Assembly: GCA_032433765.1 (NCBI GenBank)
Contig: JAVIAB010000124.1
Span: 72,465,746-72,529,745, forward strand
Length of the DNA: 64,000 nucleotides
Origin: Megaustenia siamemsis
Taxonomy: Eukaryota; Mollusca; Gastropoda; Stylommatophora; Ariophantidae
Direction: 5' to 3'
Shown here: positions 3,561-62,400 of the stretch, in pieces
How the letters are laid out: each line of letters opens with the position of its first letter
Position numbering within the stretch: the first letter of the stretch is position 1
Position numbers and translations under genes: made by a program
The notes under the pieces: model-generated
Told to the model about the DNA's origin: nothing
Seen by the model: only the letters and a program-made list of their open reading frames with translations
Databases searched by the model: none

Positions 3561-4954
3561 TTTTATTGCTTGAGGCTGAGATAGATTTTCCAAAGAGGAC
3601 TTATGCTGCAGCGGTATTCACTTTGCCATAACGCTTTATTCTGGACATGTTTTTCAGTCTCAGCAACAGAATCTATGCCTGATATTTTGCCTATATTGTC
3701 AGTGTTATTCTCAATTTCTAATGCAATCAGTCTCTTTTTTTCTCTTTCCTGTTGTCTCCAATTTGAGTGCTTGCTTTTTTAATCTCTGGCTTCTTCTTTT
3801 CCAGATTATAGTTGATATTCATGGTTGCATGATATTGTCTCTTATTTTTGTTAATTCCTTCAAATTTTTGTTGATGATTTCTTGCTTATACATCTATAGG
3901 TTAGACATATTTTAATGAAATTAAGAAGTAAACTTTACTTGACACCAATTCACTGAGTTAGAAAGTGAATCATGAAGATGGTTGTGTAACTAGTTTTACC
4001 ATATAAATAGGTTTCTTGAAAATGTATAAATTAGTAGGAAAAACAATTGTAAGGGCATATTTATAAATGAACATAGTTCTACAGTTATCAGAAAAGGACA
4101 TTTATTATGTCATTAAATGTTACTGCTAACAAAAGTATTAACATACTTACACTTTTTTAATACTGAATTGCGAGATATGAAATGGAAAAAAATCAAGAAA
4201 AAATAAGTATAAAAAGACACAAAAGAAATTGGGGGCCTCTATAGCCTAGTTGGGAAAACCATGATGTCACATGACTTATATTGGCTAGTCTGGGAGGCGT
4301 TTAGTGGAAAGGTTTTGTGAACATCTTTGAGATATTCAACAGAATACTGGCACTCCAGTGGCATCCCACTTCAGATCCTCGGACCTCTATGGCAAAAACT
4401 ACATCTGTATCCCTGATATTGTCCTCTGCCGCTCCAGTGACCGCAGCCTTCTTGCCTTATAGATCGCTACAAGGCATTAATGTATCACACTCATATACAC
4501 ATAGTTTCCCTGTGGCTGGCCCTTCCCTATTGCATATTTTCTGTGGCTCATGTTTGAGGACATTAGTATATGCATATGCTATGCTATTACATCTCTCCAC
4601 TACTAGACCACACTGCAATACTTCAGCTGTTCCCTATATTTCTTTCTTAACTCTGCAACATCTCAATCTTTTCTCATCTCATGTACCCTGTATTCTTCTG
4701 GTCTGTTCTTCGAGCTTTGTGTATGCACATGGACCTGTGTGTGGGAACTTCTAGTTATTCATGCTGTGTGCGCACATTTTCACCTTGGTACGCACGTACG
4801 CACCCCATGCATGTACAGTGGCGTTTAATTTCCCACAACTCAGTTTGCAGGGAAGATCTTTTATTCTTATTTTTATTTCTCAATCTTGTTCGAAATTATT
4901 ATTTTTTTTATTTATTTATTTATTTTTTAAATACATATCTGTGTGTGTGTTGTA
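3561..4954. other. No gene recognised
   Basis: Non-coding in appearance. A TTTA-rich run at about 4903-4925 is the only simple repeat. Short ORFs around 4317-4750 have low-complexity, Ser/Phe/Leu-rich translations without family signatures. Confidence 0.5.
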
Positions 4955-5062
4955 TGTTTGTTCCTGCTGAAGGCCTGTTGGGCTGAAACATTGTTCTACT
5001 TAGTGTCGTCTGCTTATTACGTAAAGATTTAATTTTTTTTCCTTTTTTTTTTTTTTTGATAT
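4955..5062 (+). repeat. Penelope-associated repeat with hammerhead-like core, copy 1
   Basis: Contains CTGCTGAAGGCC, a short loop, GGGCT and GAAAC, then a T-rich tail. The same order (…GAAGGCC-loop-GGCC-GAAA…, then a poly-T run) is found at 31888-31985 (+) and 60300-60405 (-). The last is the 3' part of a Penelope-like element. CTGNTGA / GAAA separated by a small hairpin resembles a degenerate hammerhead ribozyme core. Confidence 0.5.
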
Positions 5063-22754: not shown

Positions 22755-25700
22755 GTTGTTAATGAAACGTAGACCTGATACAGAATGTGTAAATTAGCAG
22801 TAGATAGTAGTGATAGTTTTTTCGGCCCTAAAACAACAACAAAAATAGGATTCTGGAATGTGCGAACAATGGCCGCTCCGACGAAACATGCACAGGTCGC
22901 GAGCGAGATGGACAGATACGATCTAGATATTTTAGGATTAAGCGAAATGCGCTGGCCTGGAACAGGTAGGAGATCTATTGATAATAAAATAGTAGTTTTT
23001 TCTGGAAGGGAAGATGGAAAACACCGTGAAGGAGTAGGCATAATGATGACAGACAAAGCTGCAAGAAGTTTATTAGAATGGGAACCGGTAAATAGCCGTC
23101 TGATACGAACACGATACAAAACAAAACATGGAAGACTTTCAATTATTCAATGTTATGCGCCTACTAACGAAGCTGATGATGAAGTTAAGGATGATTTTTA
23201 TAACCAACTGCAACAACTTATAAACAAAATACCAAAACACGATCTTTTAATTGTAATGGGAGACTTCAACGCCAAAGTAGGACAAGATAACGCAGGAGTG
23301 GAACATGTGATGGGGAGAGAAGGCTGTAATACAACAAGTCAGAATGGAGAAAGATTAATAGAATTATGTTTAATAGAAAATTTAGTTATAGGTGGGACAT
23401 TATTTCCACATAAAAATATCCACAAAACAACATGGATATCTCCTGATGATAGAACATCAAATCAAATTGACCACCTATGTATTAAACAACAATTCAGATC
23501 ATCATTAATAGATGTAAGAGCATACAGAGGTGCTGATGTTAATAGTGACCACAACCTGTGCATTGGGAAAATAAGATTAAAATTTAGAAACCAACAGAAG
23601 AGGTCAATTACACATAAAATTGATAGTCATAAACTGAAAGATGAAGCAATAAAGGAAAAGTTTAACATAGAGCTAAGTAATTGTTATTCAGCACTTGGTG
23701 AAATAGACTTAGATATCAATGAAATGTGGGACTCACAGAGCAAAATACTAATGACAGCAGCAGAAGCAAGTGCTGGACTGAAGAAAATGGAAAAACGAGC
23801 TTGGATCTCAGACACCACATGGAAATACATCAAAGAAAGAAGAGAAGCGAAGAGAGCCATGACTAATGTAAAGACAGATCTTGGAAAGGTTCTGGCAAAA
23901 GCAACATACAAAGAATTAGACAACAAAGTGAAAAGTTCGGCAAGAAGAGATACAAGAGCTTATATAGACAACTTGGCAGAGAAAGCAGAGACAGCTGCAA
24001 TTACAGGAGACAGCAGAACTCTTTATACTGTACAAAAGATGCTGACAAACACCTATACATCCAGTGGAACACCAATTCTAGACAAATCTGGATTAATGCT
24101 AACAACAAGCGCAGACATAAAAGCCCGTTGGGCGGAACACTTCAAAGAAATTCTTAACCGTCCACTACCTCACAGTTTAATAGATTTTGAAACTGAAACA
24201 CCAGCAGCAGAATTAGATGTAAATTTAGATGACTTCACCTTGAGTGAAATAGAAACCACCTTAAAGCTAATGACCAATAACAAGGCTGCTGGAGAGGATA
24301 AGTTAACAGCTGAGATCCTCAAGGCAATTGATAGCCATAATTTAATACATCTCCAAAAAATGTTCAACATCATTTGGAAAACAGAGAAGACGCCTCATAA
24401 ATGGAAAAAAGGAATCATTGTTAAGATCCCAAAAAAGGGCAATCTTAGAGATTGTAACAATTGGAGAGGCGTGACACTTTTGTCAGTTGCCTCAAAATTA
24501 TTCTGTAAAATCATCCTAAATAGAATAAAGGATTCAATAGATACAGTAATGCGTGAAGAACAGGCTGGGTTTAGAAAAGGGAGAAGCTGTCTTGACCACA
24601 TTTTCACTCTACGACTTATATTGGAGGAACACATTGAAAAGCAAAAACCTTTTGTACTTAACTTCATCGACTTCAAAAAAGCATTTGATAGTATTCATAG
24701 AGATTCTTTGTGGAAAATTCTGAAGCAATATGGCTTACCATCAAAAATCATAAATATTATCAAAGACATGTATGATGGTTACACATGTGCAGTTCGAACA
24801 GAGGAAGGACTGAGCGAATGTTTCCCAATAGAAACTGGGGTTAAACAAGGATGTATTTTATCGCCCTTGTTATTTGGAATTGTTATGGACTTCATAATGA
24901 AGAAATGCTGCACTGGTAATAAAGGCATCGAATGGATACAAGGAGACCATTTGGAGGACCTCGACTTTGCTGATGACATAGTTCTCATCAGCAATCAGAT
25001 AAAAACGATGCAGGAAAACACAAATGAACTATCATCAATAGCCAGCAAAATTGGGCTTGAGGTCAATCATGAAAAGACTAAAGTCATGAAAAGTTTAATT
25101 CCAACAAGTGACAAAATATACATGGAAAACAAACCAGTAGAAGAGATCGATCACTTCATCTATCTTGGAAGTCACATTGATCGAGAAGGGGATACGAGCA
25201 AAGAAATTAGAATCAGACTGGCTAAAGCAGCAATGTCTTTCAGAAGCCTTGAAAAGTTGTGGAAATCAAAACTCATTAGCACAAACACAAAACTTAGGCT
25301 ATTCAAATCAAATGTACTATCAACCCTTACGTATGCGTGTGAAAGCTGGAAAACAACAAGAGATATAGAAACAAAGTTGAACGCATTCGAAAATAAATGT
25401 CTAAGGAAAATACTTGGTATAGAATGGAACGAATTCAAAACAAACGAGGAAATTAGAGAAATCGCCAATCAACCACTAATATCTTCAGTAATAAAGAAAA
25501 GACGATGGTCATACGTTGGACATGTGATGAGAAGAGATAATAATCGAATAGCAAAGCAAGCCCTCATATGGGAAACAACAGGTAAAAGAAAAAGAGGAAG
25601 ACCCAGGGAGACACTGAGAAGAACATTGATGAGAGAGGCAAGAGCAGCAGGAATCGGCTCCCTCAATGAGATAGAACTGCTTGCACAGAACAGAGACAGA

Positions 25701-25828
25701 TGGCGAGATTTGATAAAATATCTTTAAAAGAAAACTGCTAGAACAAAAATTCATATAGGAGAAGGTGTATCTTGGTCTACGCCCTATGGGCCGGTTACGG
25801 CTCGAAAGGTCAATAGATAGATAGATAG
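22755..25828 (+). mobile_element. Full-length RTE LINE (family A)
   Basis: A 3.07-kb non-LTR retrotransposon with a single intact ORF (22785-25727), about 30 bp of 5' leader and a ~100-bp 3' UTR ending in CAATAGATAGATAGATAG. A candidate 7-bp duplication AATATAT flanks it (22748-22754 and 25829-25835), but the site is AT-rich so this is weak. A second, truncated copy of the same family is at 16312-16925. No second ORF is present, as usual for RTE elements. Confidence 0.85.
22785..25727 (+). CDS. RTE LINE endonuclease-reverse transcriptase, intact
   Basis: 980 codons without interruption. Endonuclease (about residues 20-260): GFWNVRTM with Asn24, LSEMRWPG (Glu54), VMGDFNAKVG (Asp160, Asn162) and NSDHNLCIGKIRLKF (Asp255, His256), the complete AP-like set. 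A Lys-rich linker follows. Reverse transcriptase (about 490-780): NKAAGEDKL, NNWRGVTLLSV, EQAGFRKGRSCLDH, NFIDFKKAFDSIHR (motif A Asp), GVKQGCILSPLLF and LDFADDIVLIS (catalytic FADD near 728). The C-terminal part has YACESW, RRWSYVGHVMRR and KRKRGRPRE, then NRDRWRDLI. All catalytic residues are present and the ORF is open, so it may still be active or was until recently. Length is normal for RTE (about 1000 aa). Confidence 0.95.
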   Translation: MCKLAVDSSDSFFGPKTTTKIGFWNVRTMAAPTKHAQVASEMDRYDLDILGLSEMRWPGTGRRSIDNKIVVFSGREDGKHREGVGIMMTDKAARSLLEWEPVNSRLIRTRYKTKHGRLSIIQCYAPTNEADDEVKDDFYNQLQQLINKIPKHDLLIVMGDFNAKVGQDNAGVEHVMGREGCNTTSQNGERLIELCLIENLVIGGTLFPHKNIHKTTWISPDDRTSNQIDHLCIKQQFRSSLIDVRAYRGADVNSDHNLCIGKIRLKFRNQQKRSITHKIDSHKLKDEAIKEKFNIELSNCYSALGEIDLDINEMWDSQSKILMTAAEASAGLKKMEKRAWISDTTWKYIKERREAKRAMTNVKTDLGKVLAKATYKELDNKVKSSARRDTRAYIDNLAEKAETAAITGDSRTLYTVQKMLTNTYTSSGTPILDKSGLMLTTSADIKARWAEHFKEILNRPLPHSLIDFETETPAAELDVNLDDFTLSEIETTLKLMTNNKAAGEDKLTAEILKAIDSHNLIHLQKMFNIIWKTEKTPHKWKKGIIVKIPKKGNLRDCNNWRGVTLLSVASKLFCKIILNRIKDSIDTVMREEQAGFRKGRSCLDHIFTLRLILEEHIEKQKPFVLNFIDFKKAFDSIHRDSLWKILKQYGLPSKIINIIKDMYDGYTCAVRTEEGLSECFPIETGVKQGCILSPLLFGIVMDFIMKKCCTGNKGIEWIQGDHLEDLDFADDIVLISNQIKTMQENTNELSSIASKIGLEVNHEKTKVMKSLIPTSDKIYMENKPVEEIDHFIYLGSHIDREGDTSKEIRIRLAKAAMSFRSLEKLWKSKLISTNTKLRLFKSNVLSTLTYACESWKTTRDIETKLNAFENKCLRKILGIEWNEFKTNEEIREIANQPLISSVIKKRRWSYVGHVMRRDNNRIAKQALIWETTGKRKRGRPRETLRRTLMREARAAGIGSLNEIELLAQNRDRWRDLIKYL

Positions 25829-31688: not shown

Positions 31689-31797
31689 AAGTGAATCATA
31701 GACAGTAGACAAACAAATGAAAAAAAGATTGGAGGCCAAAGAGATGGGATTTCTCAGAAGAATTTTGAGAGTTCCCTGGACAGTTAAAAAGGAGTAA

Positions 31798-32010
31798 AGG
31801 CATCAAGATGCACAGAGATGCAAAGCTACTGACCAAGATGCACAGATATGTGAAGCTGCTGACCAAGATGCACAGAGATGCGAAGCTACTGAAGGCCTAC
31901 TTGGCCAAAACATCGTTCAACTTTTGTTTTGTTTCTTACCTCATAAAGCTGTTATCATATCACTTTTTTCTCTTTTTTTTTTAAAGAGGAAAACACTTTT
32001 GTGTTACAAA
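31798..32010 (+). repeat. Penelope-associated repeat with 30-bp tandem units and hammerhead-like core, copy 2
   Basis: Begins AGTAAAGGCATCAAGATGC (same as 60231-60252), then about three imperfect copies of a ~30-bp unit 'GACCAAGATGCACAGAGATG', then CTACTGAAGGCCTACTTGGCC-AAAAC, TTTTGTTTTGTTTC, AAAGCTGTTATCATATCAC and a T-run. The latter half is the reverse complement of 60300-60410. Confidence 0.75.
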
Positions 32011-35170: not shown

Positions 35171-38100
35171 CCCCATCAAGGCCAGCTCCTTGTCGTGGGG
35201 ATGGGGCTTAACAGTCACCAGGGACTGAAAACCAAGACTGGCCAGGCCTTCCTACACCCGTGCAAGACCACAGTCTGCTCTAGCAATTTTAAGTGCTGAA
35301 GTCGGAGGCAACCAGCCAAAAGGCGCACTACAAAAATCAGGATGCCACGCACTCACGCCAATGGGAAGCATGCCTATAACTGCAAATCGATATGGCACTC
35401 GCCCTGTGATGGACACTCAGGCAGGTGCAGCGCCGGGCCCTCAGCCTCGAAAGGGCCCAACCTATATTACTGGATGTCCTTCTCAATCGCTCTGTGGAGT
35501 CAGGGGGCGAGAGAATAGAGTTACTGGCCAACCCAAAATAAGACCACTCAAAATAATGCACTGGAATGCTGAAGGCATCAACAGCAAAAGAGATGGGTAC
35601 AGTAAAAAGATAGAATTAGAAAATATCCTGCATGAAGAACAAGTAAGCATATGCTGTTTGCAGGAAACCCATCTAAACAACGACATAGCCTTGAAGATTA
35701 GGGGATACCAGTGCTACCGATCTGACAGGAAAAACAGACAAAAGGGCGGAATACTGACTCTTGTAAGGAACAACATTAATGCATGTCAGATTGAAGTGTA
35801 TATGGATGGGGCGGAATATCAAATACTGCACCTCAGGACAGGAAATACAGACTTCCATCTACTAAACTACTACTGTCCGAGTGACCGCCCACTAGCACTA
35901 GACACAATTACATTAAAAGAAAGAATAATTGTATGTGGAGACTTTAACAGCCATTCACAGAGCTGGGGCTATGAAGATATGGACAAGAGAGGTGAAGAAC
36001 TTGAAAATTGGCAGGATGACAATGGGCTTATACTATTAAACCAGGCAACAGATCCACCAACATTCTATTCCAGATCATGGCATACCACATCTACACCAGA
36101 CCTTGCTTTCCATTCACCAGACCTGGATTGGAATATCACACGTATTGTTGGGAAACAACTTGGAGGCAGCGACCACCGACCTGTCTTTTTAGTGGTGCAA
36201 AATGAGGCCGTCAGGGAGAGCAGCACTCTCTCCAGATGGAATTACAAAAAGGCAGACTGGAAAATGTATCAACATTACACCAGTGTACTGACTAAAGATC
36301 TAAATACAGACAGAGACATCAACAAAATAGTTGATGAATTCAGTAGACTAATAATACAAGCTGCCAGTGAAACAATACCCAGAGGGGCACGGAAACACTA
36401 CAAACCATACTGGAATAGTGAACTAGAGCAACTGCACAATGACATGGAAACATCTCGAAAACAAGCAGAAAATAACCCCTGCCAGGAACACCACAATAAC
36501 TATCAGCATGCTAAAGCCAAATTTCAATGGGCTAAACTACAAGCCAGACGGAGAAGTTGGAAAGAGAAAACAGAGTACATGAATCTAGAACGAGACACAA
36601 GAAAAGTGTGGAAGCTTGTAAAACAGCTGAATGATGAGGGTACAGAAGGGAACACAAAAATTACACTGAAGAAGGATGGAAACATTCTAACAGGTAAACA
36701 TGCAGCAAATCACTTTGCAGACTCCTTTGCAAATGACAACAATATTGAAATTAGCCTAGAGAAACGTCAAGAGACCCGTCTAAAACAACAAAATGCAAGA
36801 CAAGAAGAGACTGCACATGAAGTCATGGAAATACCCATTACACAAAGAGAGCTAGAGCTGGCAATATCCAAATTAAAAATGAAAAAGTCACCAGGTAGTG
36901 ATGGAGTGTCTAATGAAATGATTAAGAACTTGGGAACTGCAGCTAAAGCAAAACTACTGCAGATCTACAACATTTGCTGGATCACAGGTAAAGTGCCACA
37001 GGCATGGAGAGAAGCAATTATGATACCATTACTAAAGCCAGGAAAAGATGGTTCAATGACATCCAGCTATAGACCAATCAGCCTTACAAGCTGTTTGTGC
37101 AAAACAATGGAACGTATAATCAATCTCAGACTGCAGTGGTACCTGGAAAGTGAAAATCTCCTTGTCCCACAACAAGCAGGCTTTAGACAGTGTTACTCTA
37201 CCGAAGATCAGGCAACCTATCTTTCCCAGGAAATTGAGGATGCGTTTCAAGAAAAGAAACTGGTACTAGCAGCATGGATAGACCTAAAGAAAGCATTTGA
37301 TAAGGTATGGAAGGAAGGGCTTTTGAAGAAACTGAGAAATTATGGAGTAAATGGCAGGATGTACAAATGGGTCAAAGCATACCTGCATAACAGGAGAGCC
37401 AGAGTGCAACTGGATGGTCTTAAGAGTAAGAAGGTCTTACTGCGCCAGGGCGTTCCACAGGGAGGGGTACTATCTCCAACACTTTTTCTGATCTACATCA
37501 ATGACCTAGTTACTGAACTACCACATGGTATCAAAGTGGCAATGTATGCAGATGACTTGGTAATGTGGTGCACAGAGGAGTATGCAACAGTGGCCTCCAA
37601 ATTGTTACAAAGAGCTATGAATGCACTGAATTCATGGACAAATAGATGGTGTATCAGCATCAATACAGACAAATGCAGTACTACACTTTTCACTCTTTCC
37701 CCAAAACAAAAAGCAGGAGCCATCTATATAAACAATGAGCCTGTGAAAGAAGACATACAGGCTACGTATCTCGGAGTTACATTTGATAACAAACTATCTT
37801 GGAAACAGCAGATAAATAAGGCAACCCAAAAAGCAAGGAGAAAATTGGCTATTCTAAGAAAGCTGTGCGGAACTACGTGGGGTGCGAGTGGGAAAATACT
37901 CAGTAAAGTTTACCAACAGAGTATACGCCCACATTTAGAATATGGATCATCTGCATGGTGTTCAGCATCAAACACCACACTTCAAGAACTGGATAAAGTA
38001 CAAAACCAGGCACTTAGGGTCATCACAGGAGCAATGAAATCAACACCAATATTAGAGATGGAGAAATTGTGGAGGATACCAGCACTGAGAGAACGGAGGG

Positions 38101-39236
38101 ACACAAAGGTGCTGATACAGGCAGAAAAATTTGCTTGCATGCCGAGACATCCAATGAAGGACCGATTCCAAAATCTTGCATTGGGACGACTTAAGAGAAG
38201 CAGTTTTATCCACCAAGCCAAGCGTATTAGTAGACAAACACCAGACATGCCAAGAGCTGTTAACCCCCTACTGCCCATACCAGAACAGACTCCCTGGACA
38301 GAGGAATCTGGATTATCAGTTCAAATACGGACAGAAGTGAAAGGAATAGTTGATAAAGAGGAACAGAATAGTCTACAGCGAAAAACAATAACTCTCAGTT
38401 TCCTGGATGAAGAATACCCACAAGACCTATGGATTCGTGTGTATACAGATGGATCAGCACAGAATGCAGTAAAAAATGGGGGAGCAGGTGCATATATAGA
38501 ATACCCAAATAACACTAGGGATATGAATAAAATAGCAACAGGGAAATATTGTCACAATTATGATGCAGAAATACAAGCAATAAAGTTAGCAATAGAAAAA
38601 CTGCTGAACATTAATCTTAGCCCGCAGCCTGTAGTGTTTTTGACAGATGCAAGATCAGTACTCCAGGCACTACAATCCAGAAAATTACCACATCTGCAGA
38701 CCTTATTGACTGAACTCTGCAAGCACCACAGGGTTGCCCTGCAGTGGATCCCATCTCACTGTGGAATACCAGGAAATGAGAAAGCAGATCAGTTGGCAAA
38801 GGAAGGTTCAACAGGCACACAACTAGATACACCTGTTACATACCATCATAAGAAACAGATAATCAAATCAATCAGAGGACCACAAGCCCCAAATCAGGAT
38901 GCCTTTTATAATATGAATAGATATGAACAAGTTATCATTATACGTCTCAGAACAGGACACAATCGACTCCATAGTCACATGTATACAAAATTCAAGATCG
39001 GCACCTCAACTACTTGTACATGTGGACAGGCGCCCCAGACTGCTGAACACATACTTCAAGACTGCACTGAATATAGTAGACTGAGGAAAATCCATTGGCC
39101 CATAGATACAACACTACAGACAAAACTATATGGGCCACTGCAAGAATTACAAAAGACAGTAACATTTATACAGGAAACGACATTGCAGATATAGACAATG
39201 CTTCAGGCGAACGAAAGATAGATAGATAGATAGATA
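35171..39236 (+). mobile_element. Full-length intact I-like LINE (family W)
   Basis: A 4.07-kb non-LTR retrotransposon. It starts CCCCATCAAGGCCAGC, with a 190-bp GC-richer leader and one ORF, and ends with CGAACGAAAGATAGATAGAT, a GATA tail. It is flanked by a 13-bp direct repeat and sits in the C2-gene intron in the same orientation as the gene, 64 bp after exon 35044-35106. It has no separate gag-like ORF1, which many I elements carry; here the element either lacks it or relies on the same protein. Confidence 0.95.
35361..39194 (+). CDS. I-like LINE polyprotein: endonuclease, RT, RNase H, zinc knuckle; intact
   Basis: 1277 codons without interruption. Endonuclease: IMHWNAEGIN (Asn69), CCLQETHLN (Glu about 102), IVCGDFNSHSQSWG (about 192) and GGSDHRPVFLV (about 269). 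RT: KKSPGSDGVSNEM, SYRPISLTSCL (about 570), QQAGFRQCYST (606), AAWIDLKKAFDKVW (638), RQGVPQGGVLSPTLF (694) and VAMYADDLVMW (catalytic YADD about 729). RNase H: RVYTDGSAQN (1026), NYDAEIQAI (1066), FLTDARSVLQAL (1093) and SHCGIPGNEKADQLAKEG (1130), a full DEDD set. A CTCG…HILQDC CCHC motif lies near 1219. It would nick target DNA, prime and copy its RNA, and degrade the hybrid. All motifs are intact, so the element is young and possibly active. Confidence 0.96.
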   Translation: MGSMPITANRYGTRPVMDTQAGAAPGPQPRKGPTYITGCPSQSLCGVRGRENRVTGQPKIRPLKIMHWNAEGINSKRDGYSKKIELENILHEEQVSICCLQETHLNNDIALKIRGYQCYRSDRKNRQKGGILTLVRNNINACQIEVYMDGAEYQILHLRTGNTDFHLLNYYCPSDRPLALDTITLKERIIVCGDFNSHSQSWGYEDMDKRGEELENWQDDNGLILLNQATDPPTFYSRSWHTTSTPDLAFHSPDLDWNITRIVGKQLGGSDHRPVFLVVQNEAVRESSTLSRWNYKKADWKMYQHYTSVLTKDLNTDRDINKIVDEFSRLIIQAASETIPRGARKHYKPYWNSELEQLHNDMETSRKQAENNPCQEHHNNYQHAKAKFQWAKLQARRRSWKEKTEYMNLERDTRKVWKLVKQLNDEGTEGNTKITLKKDGNILTGKHAANHFADSFANDNNIEISLEKRQETRLKQQNARQEETAHEVMEIPITQRELELAISKLKMKKSPGSDGVSNEMIKNLGTAAKAKLLQIYNICWITGKVPQAWREAIMIPLLKPGKDGSMTSSYRPISLTSCLCKTMERIINLRLQWYLESENLLVPQQAGFRQCYSTEDQATYLSQEIEDAFQEKKLVLAAWIDLKKAFDKVWKEGLLKKLRNYGVNGRMYKWVKAYLHNRRARVQLDGLKSKKVLLRQGVPQGGVLSPTLFLIYINDLVTELPHGIKVAMYADDLVMWCTEEYATVASKLLQRAMNALNSWTNRWCISINTDKCSTTLFTLSPKQKAGAIYINNEPVKEDIQATYLGVTFDNKLSWKQQINKATQKARRKLAILRKLCGTTWGASGKILSKVYQQSIRPHLEYGSSAWCSASNTTLQELDKVQNQALRVITGAMKSTPILEMEKLWRIPALRERRDTKVLIQAEKFACMPRHPMKDRFQNLALGRLKRSSFIHQAKRISRQTPDMPRAVNPLLPIPEQTPWTEESGLSVQIRTEVKGIVDKEEQNSLQRKTITLSFLDEEYPQDLWIRVYTDGSAQNAVKNGGAGAYIEYPNNTRDMNKIATGKYCHNYDAEIQAIKLAIEKLLNINLSPQPVVFLTDARSVLQALQSRKLPHLQTLLTELCKHHRVALQWIPSHCGIPGNEKADQLAKEGSTGTQLDTPVTYHHKKQIIKSIRGPQAPNQDAFYNMNRYEQVIIIRLRTGHNRLHSHMYTKFKIGTSTTCTCGQAPQTAEHILQDCTEYSRLRKIHWPIDTTLQTKLYGPLQELQKTVTFIQETTLQI

Positions 39237-46118: not shown

Positions 46119-47189
46119 CTATTTTTCAACATAATCTCCGTCCAAGCGTATTGCCTTACGCCAACGCGAAACTAGGTCATGAATGCCTCGTTTGTACCAA
46201 GTTTTGTCCTGCTCGCGTGGCCATTTTTTAACTGCACGGATCACACCCTCATCATTGTCAAAGTGTGTCCCACGCAGGAATTTTTTGAGTGGTCCAAACA
46301 GATGGAAATCTGAGGGAGCCAGATCAGGGCTGTAAGGAGGATGGGGCAGTACAGTCCAACCAAATTTGTTGATTGCTTCCCGTGTTACCAGACTTGTGTG
46401 AGGGCGTGCATTGTCATGTTGAAGCAACAAATCTGCAGATGGCTTATTAGGCCGAACTCTGTGGAACCGATTTTTGAGTTTTGTCAGTGTATTGATGTAA
46501 GCTGTCGAGTTGATTGTCTCACCTCTTGTCATTACATCAACAAGAATCACACCATCAATGTCCCAGAAGACAGTGATCATCACCTTTCCGGCTGATGGAG
46601 ATGTTTTGAATTTTTTTCTTTTTGGTGACTGCGGATGATGCCATTCCATTGACTGCATTTTTGTTTCAGGCTCATAATAATGTGCCCACGTTTCATCACC
46701 GGTAACAATTTTTGACAAAAACATTTCTCCTTCAACACCGAAACGCTCCAACAATTCAGAACAGAATGTTTTCCTTTGAACTCTGTGATCATTTGTTAGG
46801 CACCGAGGAACCCATCGAGCGCAAATCTTTGAATATCCGAGAGTTTTAAAAATTGCGATTGCACTTCCCTTGCTGACTGTAAGCTGCAATGCCAATTGCT
46901 GACTAGTGATACGCCTATCCTTACGAATAATGGCATCAGCCCGGTTTAACATGTCTGTGCTGGTAGCCTAGGCAACACGTCCAGAACGCGGTAAATCATG
47001 CAGCTCCACTCGTACACTTTCTGCAGCTTTAATTCTCTGAACCCAGCGACTAACTGTGCTCCTATCGACTGCAGAACATTTGTACACTGCACACAGTCGT
47101 TTATGAATGTTTGCCACAGTTTCTTTTTCCGCAACCAGAAATTCTATGACAATTCGCTGTTTGTAACGGACATTGTTGACAAGCTCCAT
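46119..47189 (-). pseudogene. mariner transposase (D,D34D) with a single TAG
   Basis: One phase from 47189 to 46119, 356 codons, interrupted only by TAG at 46968-46970 (codon 74). N-terminal helix-turn-helix region: RIVIEFLVAEKETVANIHKR, VDRSTVSRWVQRIK and then ITSQQLALQLTVSKGSA. Catalytic domain: VTGDETWAHYYEPETK (first Asp), LLQHDNARPHTS (second Asp) and PYSPDLAPSDFHLFGPLKKF, with exactly 34 residues between the second and third Asp. This is the hallmark of true mariners. C-terminal region WYKRGIHDLVSRWRKAI. Everything except the stop is intact. Reading the stop through in thought is not evidence of activity; as it stands the gene is broken but young. Confidence 0.93.
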
Positions 47190-60227: not shown

Positions 60228-62138
60228 GTAAAGGAGTAAAGGCATCAAGATGCGAAGCTGCTATAAAGCTGATGATAATGACAATTTTATAAAAAAAAAA
60301 AAAAAAAGAAGAAAAAAAGTTGTATGATAACAGCTTTACATGGTAATTAACAAAACAAAAGTCGACGTTTCGGCCAAGTAGGCCTTCTGCTGGAACAACA
60401 AACACAAAAAATATATATGAGGATATGTACACAAATCTCACTACATGGCGATAATATGCTAGATACTCAAGAAAGGAAATAAAAAAAGGCCACTTCCCTG
60501 TGGTCCAGAGCATAGTCAGCTTCTGAATGAACTAAAATAAGTGGGCAGGCTGACCAACTATATATCTCACTGACCAGACAGTCAGGTGAGAATACGGAAG
60601 GGTTCTAAAAATATGGGGAGGTGGGTACAAGATACGTATAAACTGTGTATATCTAAATGTGCGTGAGCACAGTGAACAGATGTGTAAAAAAGCATGTGTA
60701 TATAACCATACATGCGTACAAGCATAAATCCGTATATATTACCACAAAGCACACAAAAGAAAACCCAAAGGTGTCCAAATGGGCCAATACATATTCAGAA
60801 AAATATACATACATGTATAGGTTTGGTAGTGCATGGGGATAAGAAATGTGTGGTAGGTATCCTATGTGAATGAGAGTGATTTGTTCATGCCTTGGGGGGA
60901 CAGCGAACCCAACTGGACAATGAGGCGATTCTCAAGGGTGAACAGTCTATGATTGCTGGAGTAACACGAGACAATGCCAGTAACTTGCATGTCAGGTTTA
61001 CCACTATGGCCAGGTGAGTTGAAATGGGCAGACACCGGGCTGCCAGTCTTTCACTCAACATCACGAAGATGCTCACAAAATCTGTCACTCAAGCGTTGTC
61101 CAGACTCGCCTGCATACATCATCTGGCAATGCTTACATATTATGGCGTAGATAATATTCCGTGACACACAAGTGAACCCTCCTTGATGTCGAATCGCCTA
61201 TTAGGGAACAAGACCGAATCGGTGCAAAGCACATAGTCACAAATTCTGCAAACTCTTATGTCCACAACGAACAGCACCAAGGTGTTTGTGGTTTGAGCAT
61301 GGGAGGTGGCTCATGACAAGAATGTTTCCTGGGGAACAGGCAAATAATTGCAACGCTGCGGTAAAGCTGAAGAACAAGGATGGACGAGGAGTAGAAGCCC
61401 CAAGAATGTCTCCTGTCGCTTTTGAAGTTTGAAGGCGACCAAAGGAGGATCACTGAAAAGTAGGCGGGTAGTGGGATCTGAGTGGAGAATGGAGCGGTAC
61501 TGGTTAAGGATTCTCACCGCAGCCAAGTTGTGAGGGTGGTAGGTGAGGGTAAATATAGTCCTATCAGAGGAATGGTGAGTAGATGGGGTGAGTACCACAG
61601 GACAGGAAATATTGAGAGCTCGTTGGAAGGTAGATTGAAGAAACGAGTCAGGATAGAGACAACACCTAAAGAAATTAAAATCAGGTGGGCCTGTTGGAGA
61701 AAATCTTGATCATCCTGGCAGATATGAGGAAAGTCATAATAATTGAGAATATGAAATTTAATCTCTGCAGTGAGATGTATGAGACGAGGTGTAGAGAAGA
61801 TATCAGTGGACATCTGTGGGTTTTTATAAGATGGAAGTGTGGAGGCTGGAGGTACCAAGGGAGATGATCAGATCAAGAAAGATGATGGACGAGGTAGAGA
61901 TATGTGATATAATTTTGATGGATTTATGAAAGTTGTCAATGTAGTCGATGAACCTAGAGATGTCATCTTCAGGCAAGTCAGTCAATCCAAAACCGTCATT
62001 GATGTACCGGAGGTATTTATGGGGAAGGGGGCCACAGTACGAGTTCAGTATTTGATGTTCAAGGTGACCCAGGAGCAGACAAGCATAACTAGGACCCATC
62101 TTGGTTCCCATAGCTACACCACTGACTTGGTCATAGGT
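60228..62138 (-). mobile_element. Penelope-like element, 5'-truncated, with GIY-YIG relic
   Basis: On the - strand from 62138: GVAMGTKMGPSYACLLLG, HKYLRYINDGFGL (RT motif with the catalytic Asp pair as IND), then HKSIKIISHISTSSIIFLDL (61824-62115), the RT C-terminal part, and a long frameshifted region. Near 61000-61170 comes the C-terminal endonuclease reading (IYAI.CKHCQMMYAGESGQ, LSDRFCEHLRDV), a GIY-YIG domain as in Penelope-like retroelements. The 3' portion carries the hammerhead-like core (60361-60405), a T-rich run and a terminal piece (60228-60297) inverted relative to the rest. Flanked by a perfect 12-bp duplication and nested in an I-like LINE. No longer functional: stops throughout. 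Confidence 0.85.
60300..60410 (-). ncRNA. Hammerhead-ribozyme-like core in Penelope-like element, copy 3
   Basis: The - strand order is GTTCCAGCAGAAGGCC, TACTT, GGCC-GAAAC-GTCGAC, then TTTTGTTTTGTTAATT and AAAGCTGTTATCATACAAC. GGCC/GGCC can form a 4-bp stem next to GAAA, as in stem II of hammerhead ribozymes, but the CUGANGA box is degenerate (CAGCAGA). Hammerheads are known from Penelope-like elements. Self-cleavage of this copy is unlikely. Confidence 0.45.
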
Positions 62139-62150
62139 CCCTTGGTAGCA
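62139..62150. repeat. Target-site duplication, right copy
   Basis: CCCTTGGTAGCA, identical to 60216-60227. Confidence 0.85.
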
Positions 62151-62400
62151 CCAATTTCTTAATGCAAGGGATAATTTATTTTTCTTACCATGTTCAAATA
62201 AGCCCAGACCTGAACATATCTATGTCACACCGTAATGCTCGGTAAGTCAATAGGTACCTATTTTGAATGGATAGATGTATTTCTGATGCATCTGAGAACT
62301 GCCTGTAGGCCCACATTCTGAACCCTGTCCAACCTTGCGATCTGAGTTAATGAGAGAGTGAGCGTACCCAAACAATAATCTAATAAACCTATAACTTCTT
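62151..62400 (-). pseudogene. I-like LINE (family V), upstream half
   Basis: The - strand reads LTLSLTQIARLDRVQNVGLQ, AVLRCIRNTS, IDLPSIT and YVQVWAYLNMVRK, the RT thumb series also seen at 39600-39860. It breaks at the duplication 62139-62150 where the Penelope-like element entered. Confidence 0.7.

Follow-up and report, generated by a model that had tools for sequence, protein, structure and literature searches.

A stem-III-less hammerhead-like motif in two Penelope-like element families of Megaustenia siamemsis, one with a substituted uridine turn

Small hammerhead variants of Penelope-like elements (PLEs) are said to have been described by Cervera and de la Pena in 2014 and by Lunse, Weinberg and Breaker in 2017, and PLE cores in which U4 is replaced by A (U4A) may have been seen before in the earlier literature. 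These PLE variants lie in the pLTR, have a minimal type I layout without stem III and have been proposed to work as dimers (PMC7761336; here and below, PMC numbers refer to the available excerpts of these papers). Their role in PLEs is called unknown, "still a mystery", in the same paper. The RNA of PAc, a Poseidon PLE of Anolis, reads CUGAGGA-U-GCC...GGGC-GAAAC-GUC-AGG (PMC11167929). It was cleaved in the assay only together with its protein, mutants of its catalytic core left insertion in vitro unchanged, and its reverse transcription starts inside the RNA; the paper also cites earlier Mg self-cleavage of a PLE hammerhead (PMC11167929). Natural hammerheads with A6 replaced by C (A6C) are known; they cleave slowly with Mg and perform better with Mn (PMC3088659, PMC7151607). 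Changes in the CUGA motif gave low activity in a mutational scan of a type III hammerhead, and no rescue by up to two mutations was found there except for a G:C swap (PMC9901934). Among molluscs, 235 hammerhead 1 ribozymes are reported from the giant squid genome (PMC6962438); a paper on Octopus vulgaris repeats lists Penelope families, and the words hammerhead and ribozyme are absent from its available part (PMC13282606).

The motif studied here was found in a window of 64 kb, the whole stretch of DNA that was analysed. The first-pass annotation had quoted three sequences as copies of a recurrent hammerhead-like core. All three are present, at positions right to within a few bases, and the motif CNGNNGA-A-GGCC-loop-GGCC-GAAAC occurs three times in the window (copies A, B and C). 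These copies and their surroundings comprise:

60355..60402, minus strand: copy C, hammerhead-like motif of the beta family (sequence, 26-mer search, covariance model)
60392-60386, minus strand: core CAGCAGA of copy C, followed by an extra A at 60385
60384-60381 and 60375-60372, minus strand: the two GGCC sides of the predicted stem II of copy C
60371-60367, minus strand: GAAAC of copy C, followed by GUC at 60366-60364
60364/60363, minus strand: predicted cleavage position of copy C
60300..60363, minus strand: conserved block 3' of the predicted cleavage site, with a T tract at its end, which is the 3' end of the PLE
60865..61197, minus strand: GIY-YIG endonuclease domain with one in-frame stop (Pfam PF01541, 26.0 bits, cut-off 22.6)
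61827..62204, minus strand: reverse transcriptase fragment of the PLE of copy C, an open reading frame with GVAMGTKMGPSYA and YIND
4954..5001, plus strand: copy A, decayed, of the alpha family (sequence, covariance model)
4964-4970, plus strand: core CTGCTGA (A6C) of copy A, followed by an extra A at 4971
4972-4975 and 4981-4984, plus strand: predicted stem II of copy A, followed by GAAAC at 4985-4989 and AUU at 4990-4992
4265..4459, plus strand: GIY-YIG remnant of the PLE bearing copy A (tblastn, E 7e-16)
31889..31982, plus strand: copy B, the 3' end of a beta element truncated on its 5' side (82.8% identity over 93 columns with copy C)

With up to 3 mismatches allowed, a 26-mer consensus matches copies B and C and gave no match in 100 shuffles of the window; copy A carries more mismatches and was missed by this search. 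A covariance model (R1) built from 24 genomic sequences scores C at 70.4 bits and A at 55.8 bits, both being members of its training set, and B, which lies outside that set, at 28.5 bits (E 2e-5); the next-best match in the window reaches 15.3 bits (E 0.17). Copy B is homologous to C over the 3' half of the motif and the downstream block, aligns to the model at positions 14-39 only, and its 5' half, CTACTGA, reads by eye like flanking repeat and not like element. The block at 60300..60363 is common to copy B and is also found when alpha is compared with beta. Copies A and C are members of two different PLE families: A is taken as alpha by its loop TGTTG and its U4, and its CATT in place of CGTC would fit CpG decay; C, judged by its core, would belong with the older beta subfamily (beta II). 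A second repeat, with 24 identical bases (GGAGTAAAGGCATCAAGATGC...), adjoins both B (31788-31811, plus strand) and C (60253-60230, minus strand), in opposite orientations relative to the motif.

The fragment at 61827..62204 scores 12.6 bits with Pfam RVT_1, below the cut-off of 29.6. We take it to be PLE reverse transcriptase from its motifs (GVAMGTKMGPSYA, YIND), and a related open frame at locus L031 leads to the same assignment. Copy C lies about 470 nt 3' of the GIY-YIG domain at 60865-61197, which in turn lies 3' of the reverse transcriptase fragment. Copy A lies about 0.5 kb downstream of its GIY-YIG remnant, which is more decayed and shares 47.7% amino-acid identity with the domain near copy C. 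Since A and C are each 3' of their own GIY-YIG, they represent two independent PLE copies with the motif at the same place, and the proposed link to a GIY-YIG-bearing PLE holds for both. The PLE reading frame within the window itself is broken. Elsewhere in the window, three frames were noted by eye: one of 1,321 aa without a stop at 35229-39194 (plus), which reads like the endonuclease, reverse transcriptase and RNase H of a LINE; one of 982 aa with endonuclease and reverse transcriptase at 22779-25727 (plus), another LINE; and one of 282 aa resembling a mariner-type transposase at 46119-46967 (minus).

The anatomy of the elements was also read from loci outside the window. A GIY-YIG sequence, for the most part in the same orientation as the motif, accompanies it at 5 of 30 beta loci and at 11 of 30 alpha loci, and locus L031 carries reverse transcriptase and a C-terminal GIY-YIG in one open frame with a beta motif downstream. 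The beta copy L109 has the organization pLTR-ORF-pLTR: a 251-bp direct repeat, 98.8% identical, surrounds reverse transcriptase and GIY-YIG, and each repeat holds the motif (CAGATGA), the two being 3,760 nt apart. Between them lies a frame starting MPSLKQL, with reverse transcriptase and GIY-YIG in a broken frame. L109 also has an inverted segment on its 5' side (94.5%), and the 5' end of L034 carries 544 bp of its 3' end in inverted form; the direct-repeat evidence for pLTRs comes from one beta copy, and the inverted copies from L109 and L034. Where neighbours among the matches listed lie on opposite strands within 3 kb, a count by eye finds them arranged head to head in all 8 alpha pairs and in 6 of 8 beta pairs. 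At L003, L005, L013, L090, L104 and L106, inverted motif pairs stand head to head, some of them joined in or next to the motif.

The genome (2.59 Gb, 155 contigs) was searched with short patterns, each controlled by the same pattern reversed. For the 21-mer of copy C there are 2,475 exact matches (1250 + 1225), and none for its reversed form. The pattern CTGANGAAGGCC-N5-GGCCGAAAC, which carries the CTGANGA form and defines alpha, occurs 779 times (397 + 382; control 0), and CAGANGAAGGCC-N5-GGCCGAAAC, which carries the CAGANGA form, 1,052 times (515 + 537; control 0). Both patterns demand the GGCC stem and GAAAC, so that families with another stem II would be missed. Among 100 alpha matches listed, the core is CTGATGA in all 100 and the loop TATTG in 93; among 100 CAGANGA matches listed, the loop is TACTT in 95, and one combines a CAGATGA core with the alpha loop TATTG. 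The loop TACTT was not seen with a CTGANGA core among 100 matches listed, where one copy has TGCTT. The CAGANGA copies are the younger part of the beta family.

Core letters were tallied for sampled beta copies that match the 21-mer exactly. Counting identical fragments once, the 44 copies read CAGCTGA (16), CAGATGA (14), CAGCAGA (4), TAGCTGA (3), CAACTGA (3), and TAGATGA, CAAATGA, ACGATGA and GAGCTGA (one each). Beta copies collected without the exact-motif requirement agree: A4 is present in all 8 with a readable core, and among 20 anchored copies, 17 of them readable, 16 have A4 and one G4. U4 is therefore absent from all 69 sampled beta cores (44 chosen by the 21-mer, 8 and 17 not), which makes the altered core an amplified family trait. 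Alpha copies that were not chosen on the motif and are readable have U4 in 6 of 6, one of them with A9 changed; the 30 alpha loci sampled for context were chosen for the canonical motif, so that U4 is built in there. The earlier suggestion that the three cores are decayed forms of CUGAUGA thus survives for copy A, whose family is CTGANGA (779 copies), and fails for B and C, whose family lacks U4; the core of copy C, CAGCAGA, is not a simple, one-step decay of CUGAUGA. Likewise, the consensus of the genomic copies contains CUGANGA in alpha and lacks it in beta, with a GUC site in both.

The hammerhead-like layout proposed for the motif is supported. In both families the letters of stem II (GGCC/GGCC) adjoin GAAA, and an extra A follows A9, a nucleotide that lies outside the textbook core. 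The NUH site of beta is GTC in 32 of 44 copies, GTT in 5, ATC in 4 and ATT in 3; in most alpha copies it is GTC or GTT, and A15.1-U16.1 is present in most. Stem I can form as GUC/GAC in most young beta copies and is elsewhere shorter or carries U-U mismatches. By age, the young beta subfamily has A6 and mostly this 3-bp stem, and older copies have C6 or a stem I with UU opposed to UU. Stem III is absent as a closed stem in both families, where ACGU stands without a loop; it would be possible only between two copies, as proposed for dimeric PLE variants. A shifted register of the beta II core (CUGAAGG), which breaks A9 and stem II, was rejected by eye.

The Rfam hammerhead models, which had been recommended as a check, gave no match in the window, in one beta copy (L031) or in 16 alpha loci; since they also miss the canonical alpha copies tested, they cannot decide hammerhead identity. 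Covariance support for the proposed pairs was not found either. In 20 distinct rows no pair has changes on both of its sides, and each of the five measures falls short of its shuffle mean. The rows were mostly chosen by the exact stem, which is partly why three of the four stem II pairs never vary. The stem I pairs are formed in 58% of the cells of this test. Minimum-free-energy folds of five single motifs pair the 5' half in a way unlike a hammerhead and are not unusually stable (z from -1.9 to +0.8); they are uninformative. Scans of a viral collection for the motif gave no match, and the 19-base motif pattern has 24 matches in 257 Gb of GTDB prokaryote contigs, bacterial or archaeal by title.

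An identity profile of 8 alpha and 4 beta copies shows how the motif region stands out from its surroundings. The approximately 480 nt that follow the stop codon (3'UTR) cannot be aligned between the families (0-0.6 identity per 30-nt window), whereas the stretch from the motif to the T tract is 0.70-0.83 identical in such windows, comparable to the coding region before the stop (0.57-0.80). Identity inside the motif is partly built in, as the patterns prescribed one stem plus GAAAC for alpha and beta alike; the approximately 60 nt after GAAAC, which the search did not select, are 0.70-0.80 identical. Because this downstream block is 70-80% identical while the preceding 3'UTR is unalignable, it looks constrained. 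A further conserved element, CACGTAAAGCT...CATACCA, is found in both families some tens of nucleotides 3' of the predicted cut; a 30-mer from it has 1,555 exact beta copies in the genome, and it is possibly the region where reverse transcription starts. Relative ages were estimated from about 52 nt downstream of the motif, leaving out 8 copies with other cores or loops. Mean pairwise distance, halved, is 0.018 for the young beta subfamily (beta I, CAGATGA; n=23), 0.026 for alpha (n=29) and 0.128 for beta II (n=27), the exact-motif choice favouring young copies in all three groups. Thus, the young U4A branch was amplified about as recently as alpha.

Insertion ends were compared with the predicted cut. 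Of 87 distinct motif copies, at least 86 continue past it: a GTAAAG-like element beyond the cut is present in 83, three of the other four visibly continue, and L026 alone loses it. Since these copies span the predicted cut, their inserted templates were uncut at that site, which agrees with PAc and is compatible with cutting at the 5' pLTR. None of the 20 anchored copies collected without the exact motif (part of those listed, on contig C1) has its 5' start at the end of the predicted 3' product; 17 contain the core and three are truncated or rearranged elsewhere. A sample of 25 rows not chosen on the motif comprises 14 copies with a readable core, the rest being repeats at a shifted offset, truncated or rearranged. 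The 5' ends of 60 motif-bearing copies are scattered from 27 to 1,529 nt upstream, and ends at the site cannot be seen in copies of this kind. Among the truncated or rearranged rows of the 25-row sample, the breakpoint of L003 (plus strand) may fall at the base after GUC, those of L089 and L022 lie 5-9 nt before that base, and those of L023 and L106 fall within stem II or beside it; such copies are too few for a peak test. L089 also holds, on its minus strand (about 1615-1830), a tandem array of six 38-bp units from the downstream block of alpha; the first unit starts ACGTC/GTTTAG, next to the predicted cut.

The motif shares with the small PLE hammerhead variants its location in the pLTR and the minimal type I layout without stem III, and differs in that U4A is a family trait of beta, with A6C in addition in older copies. 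By our own reading of the published RNA, PAc has the same single extra nucleotide between A9 and stem II, a 3-bp stem I, GAAAC-GUC and no stem III, and it further resembles the elements described here in CUGANGA (alpha), the pLTR-ORF-pLTR organization and GIY-YIG (PMC11167929). It differs in its stem letters, in having the U4 that beta lacks and, again by our reading, in that the start codon of its ORF begins at A9, whereas by our count the first ATG of the PLE frame in L109 comes some 350 nt past the site. When the Anolis RNA was aligned by plain MAFFT, its 5' half was misaligned, and this alignment was not used. Copy A (CUGCUGA) and many beta copies have C6 like the A6C hammerheads, e.g. Bcep176, which however keep the U4 missing from beta; copy A, for its part, is a single copy and decayed (PMC3088659, PMC7151607). 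Metazoan retrozymes likewise place type I hammerheads in animal mobile elements, but they are non-autonomous, whereas the elements here encode reverse transcriptase and GIY-YIG (PMC7761336).

The family, position, conservation, core letters and relative ages of the copies follow directly from the data; their fold, catalysis and protein binding are inferred. We consider it very probable that the motif is a PLE pLTR hammerhead of the known stem-III-less type, and that beta is a U4A variant of it, probably weak or dead as a ribozyme and still amplified. Alpha and beta both carry it near their 3' end, with ACGU in place of a closed stem III; alpha keeps the canonical CUGAUGA core, and beta has a fixed U4-to-A change in the CUGA uridine turn, joined by A6 to C in its older subfamily. 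Self-cleavage of alpha is plausible by analogy with the Anolis element. As U4 belongs to the uridine turn, where changes gave low activity elsewhere, beta is predicted to be a poor ribozyme, and its self-cleavage is probably weak or absent. Selection would hold the block in place, presumably since the PLE protein relies on this part of the RNA to recognise its template or to define its ends. More tentatively, we suggest that beta lost normal catalysis through U4A, that selection maintains its ribozyme fold as a non-catalytic RNA signal, and that it spreads no less well than alpha; we hold this stronger version a little less probable than its opposite.

The block could instead be a protein-binding or reverse-transcription-initiation hairpin that only resembles a hammerhead, catalysis never having mattered here. 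The PAc core mutants without effect on insertion in vitro (PMC11167929) would fit such a hairpin, as would the amplification of beta despite its U4A core, the conservation that extends some 60 nt past the motif, the at least 86 of 87 copies that span the site uncut, and the lack of covariation. A mere hairpin, however, would not need the CUGAUGA, GAAA, mostly A15.1-U16.1 and GUC or GUU of alpha, and the Anolis PLE hammerhead has the layout seen here (own reading; PMC11167929); we regard the hairpin as rather unlikely. Less probable still is that the altered core of beta makes an active hammerhead, assisted by protein, for instance, or preferring another metal ion. The young beta subfamily indeed carries A6 and, in most copies, a 3-bp stem I (GUC/GAC) where older copies have C6 or UU/UU, PAc RNA was cleaved in the assay only with added protein (PMC11167929), and A6C hammerheads cleave with Mn (PMC7151607); against this stands the position of U4 in the CUGA U-turn, with the low activity seen in the type III scan (PMC9901934). 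Chance resemblance in AT-rich repetitive DNA might be entertained for so short a motif, whose 19-base pattern does turn up 24 times among the prokaryote contigs. It is already refuted by the reversed-pattern controls (none against 2,475 and 779 genome copies), the linkage to GIY-YIG and the empty window shuffles, and its probability is negligible.

Two points are of wider interest. The Rfam hammerhead models gave no match on the PLE motif copies tested, even on those with a canonical core. Furthermore, two sister families that spread recently coexist in one genome, one keeping the canonical core and the other having a substituted U-turn, which amounts to a natural test of whether PLEs need self-cutting. 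If beta is indeed non-catalytic and yet spreading, the PLE "ribozyme" would matter as a structure and not as a catalyst.
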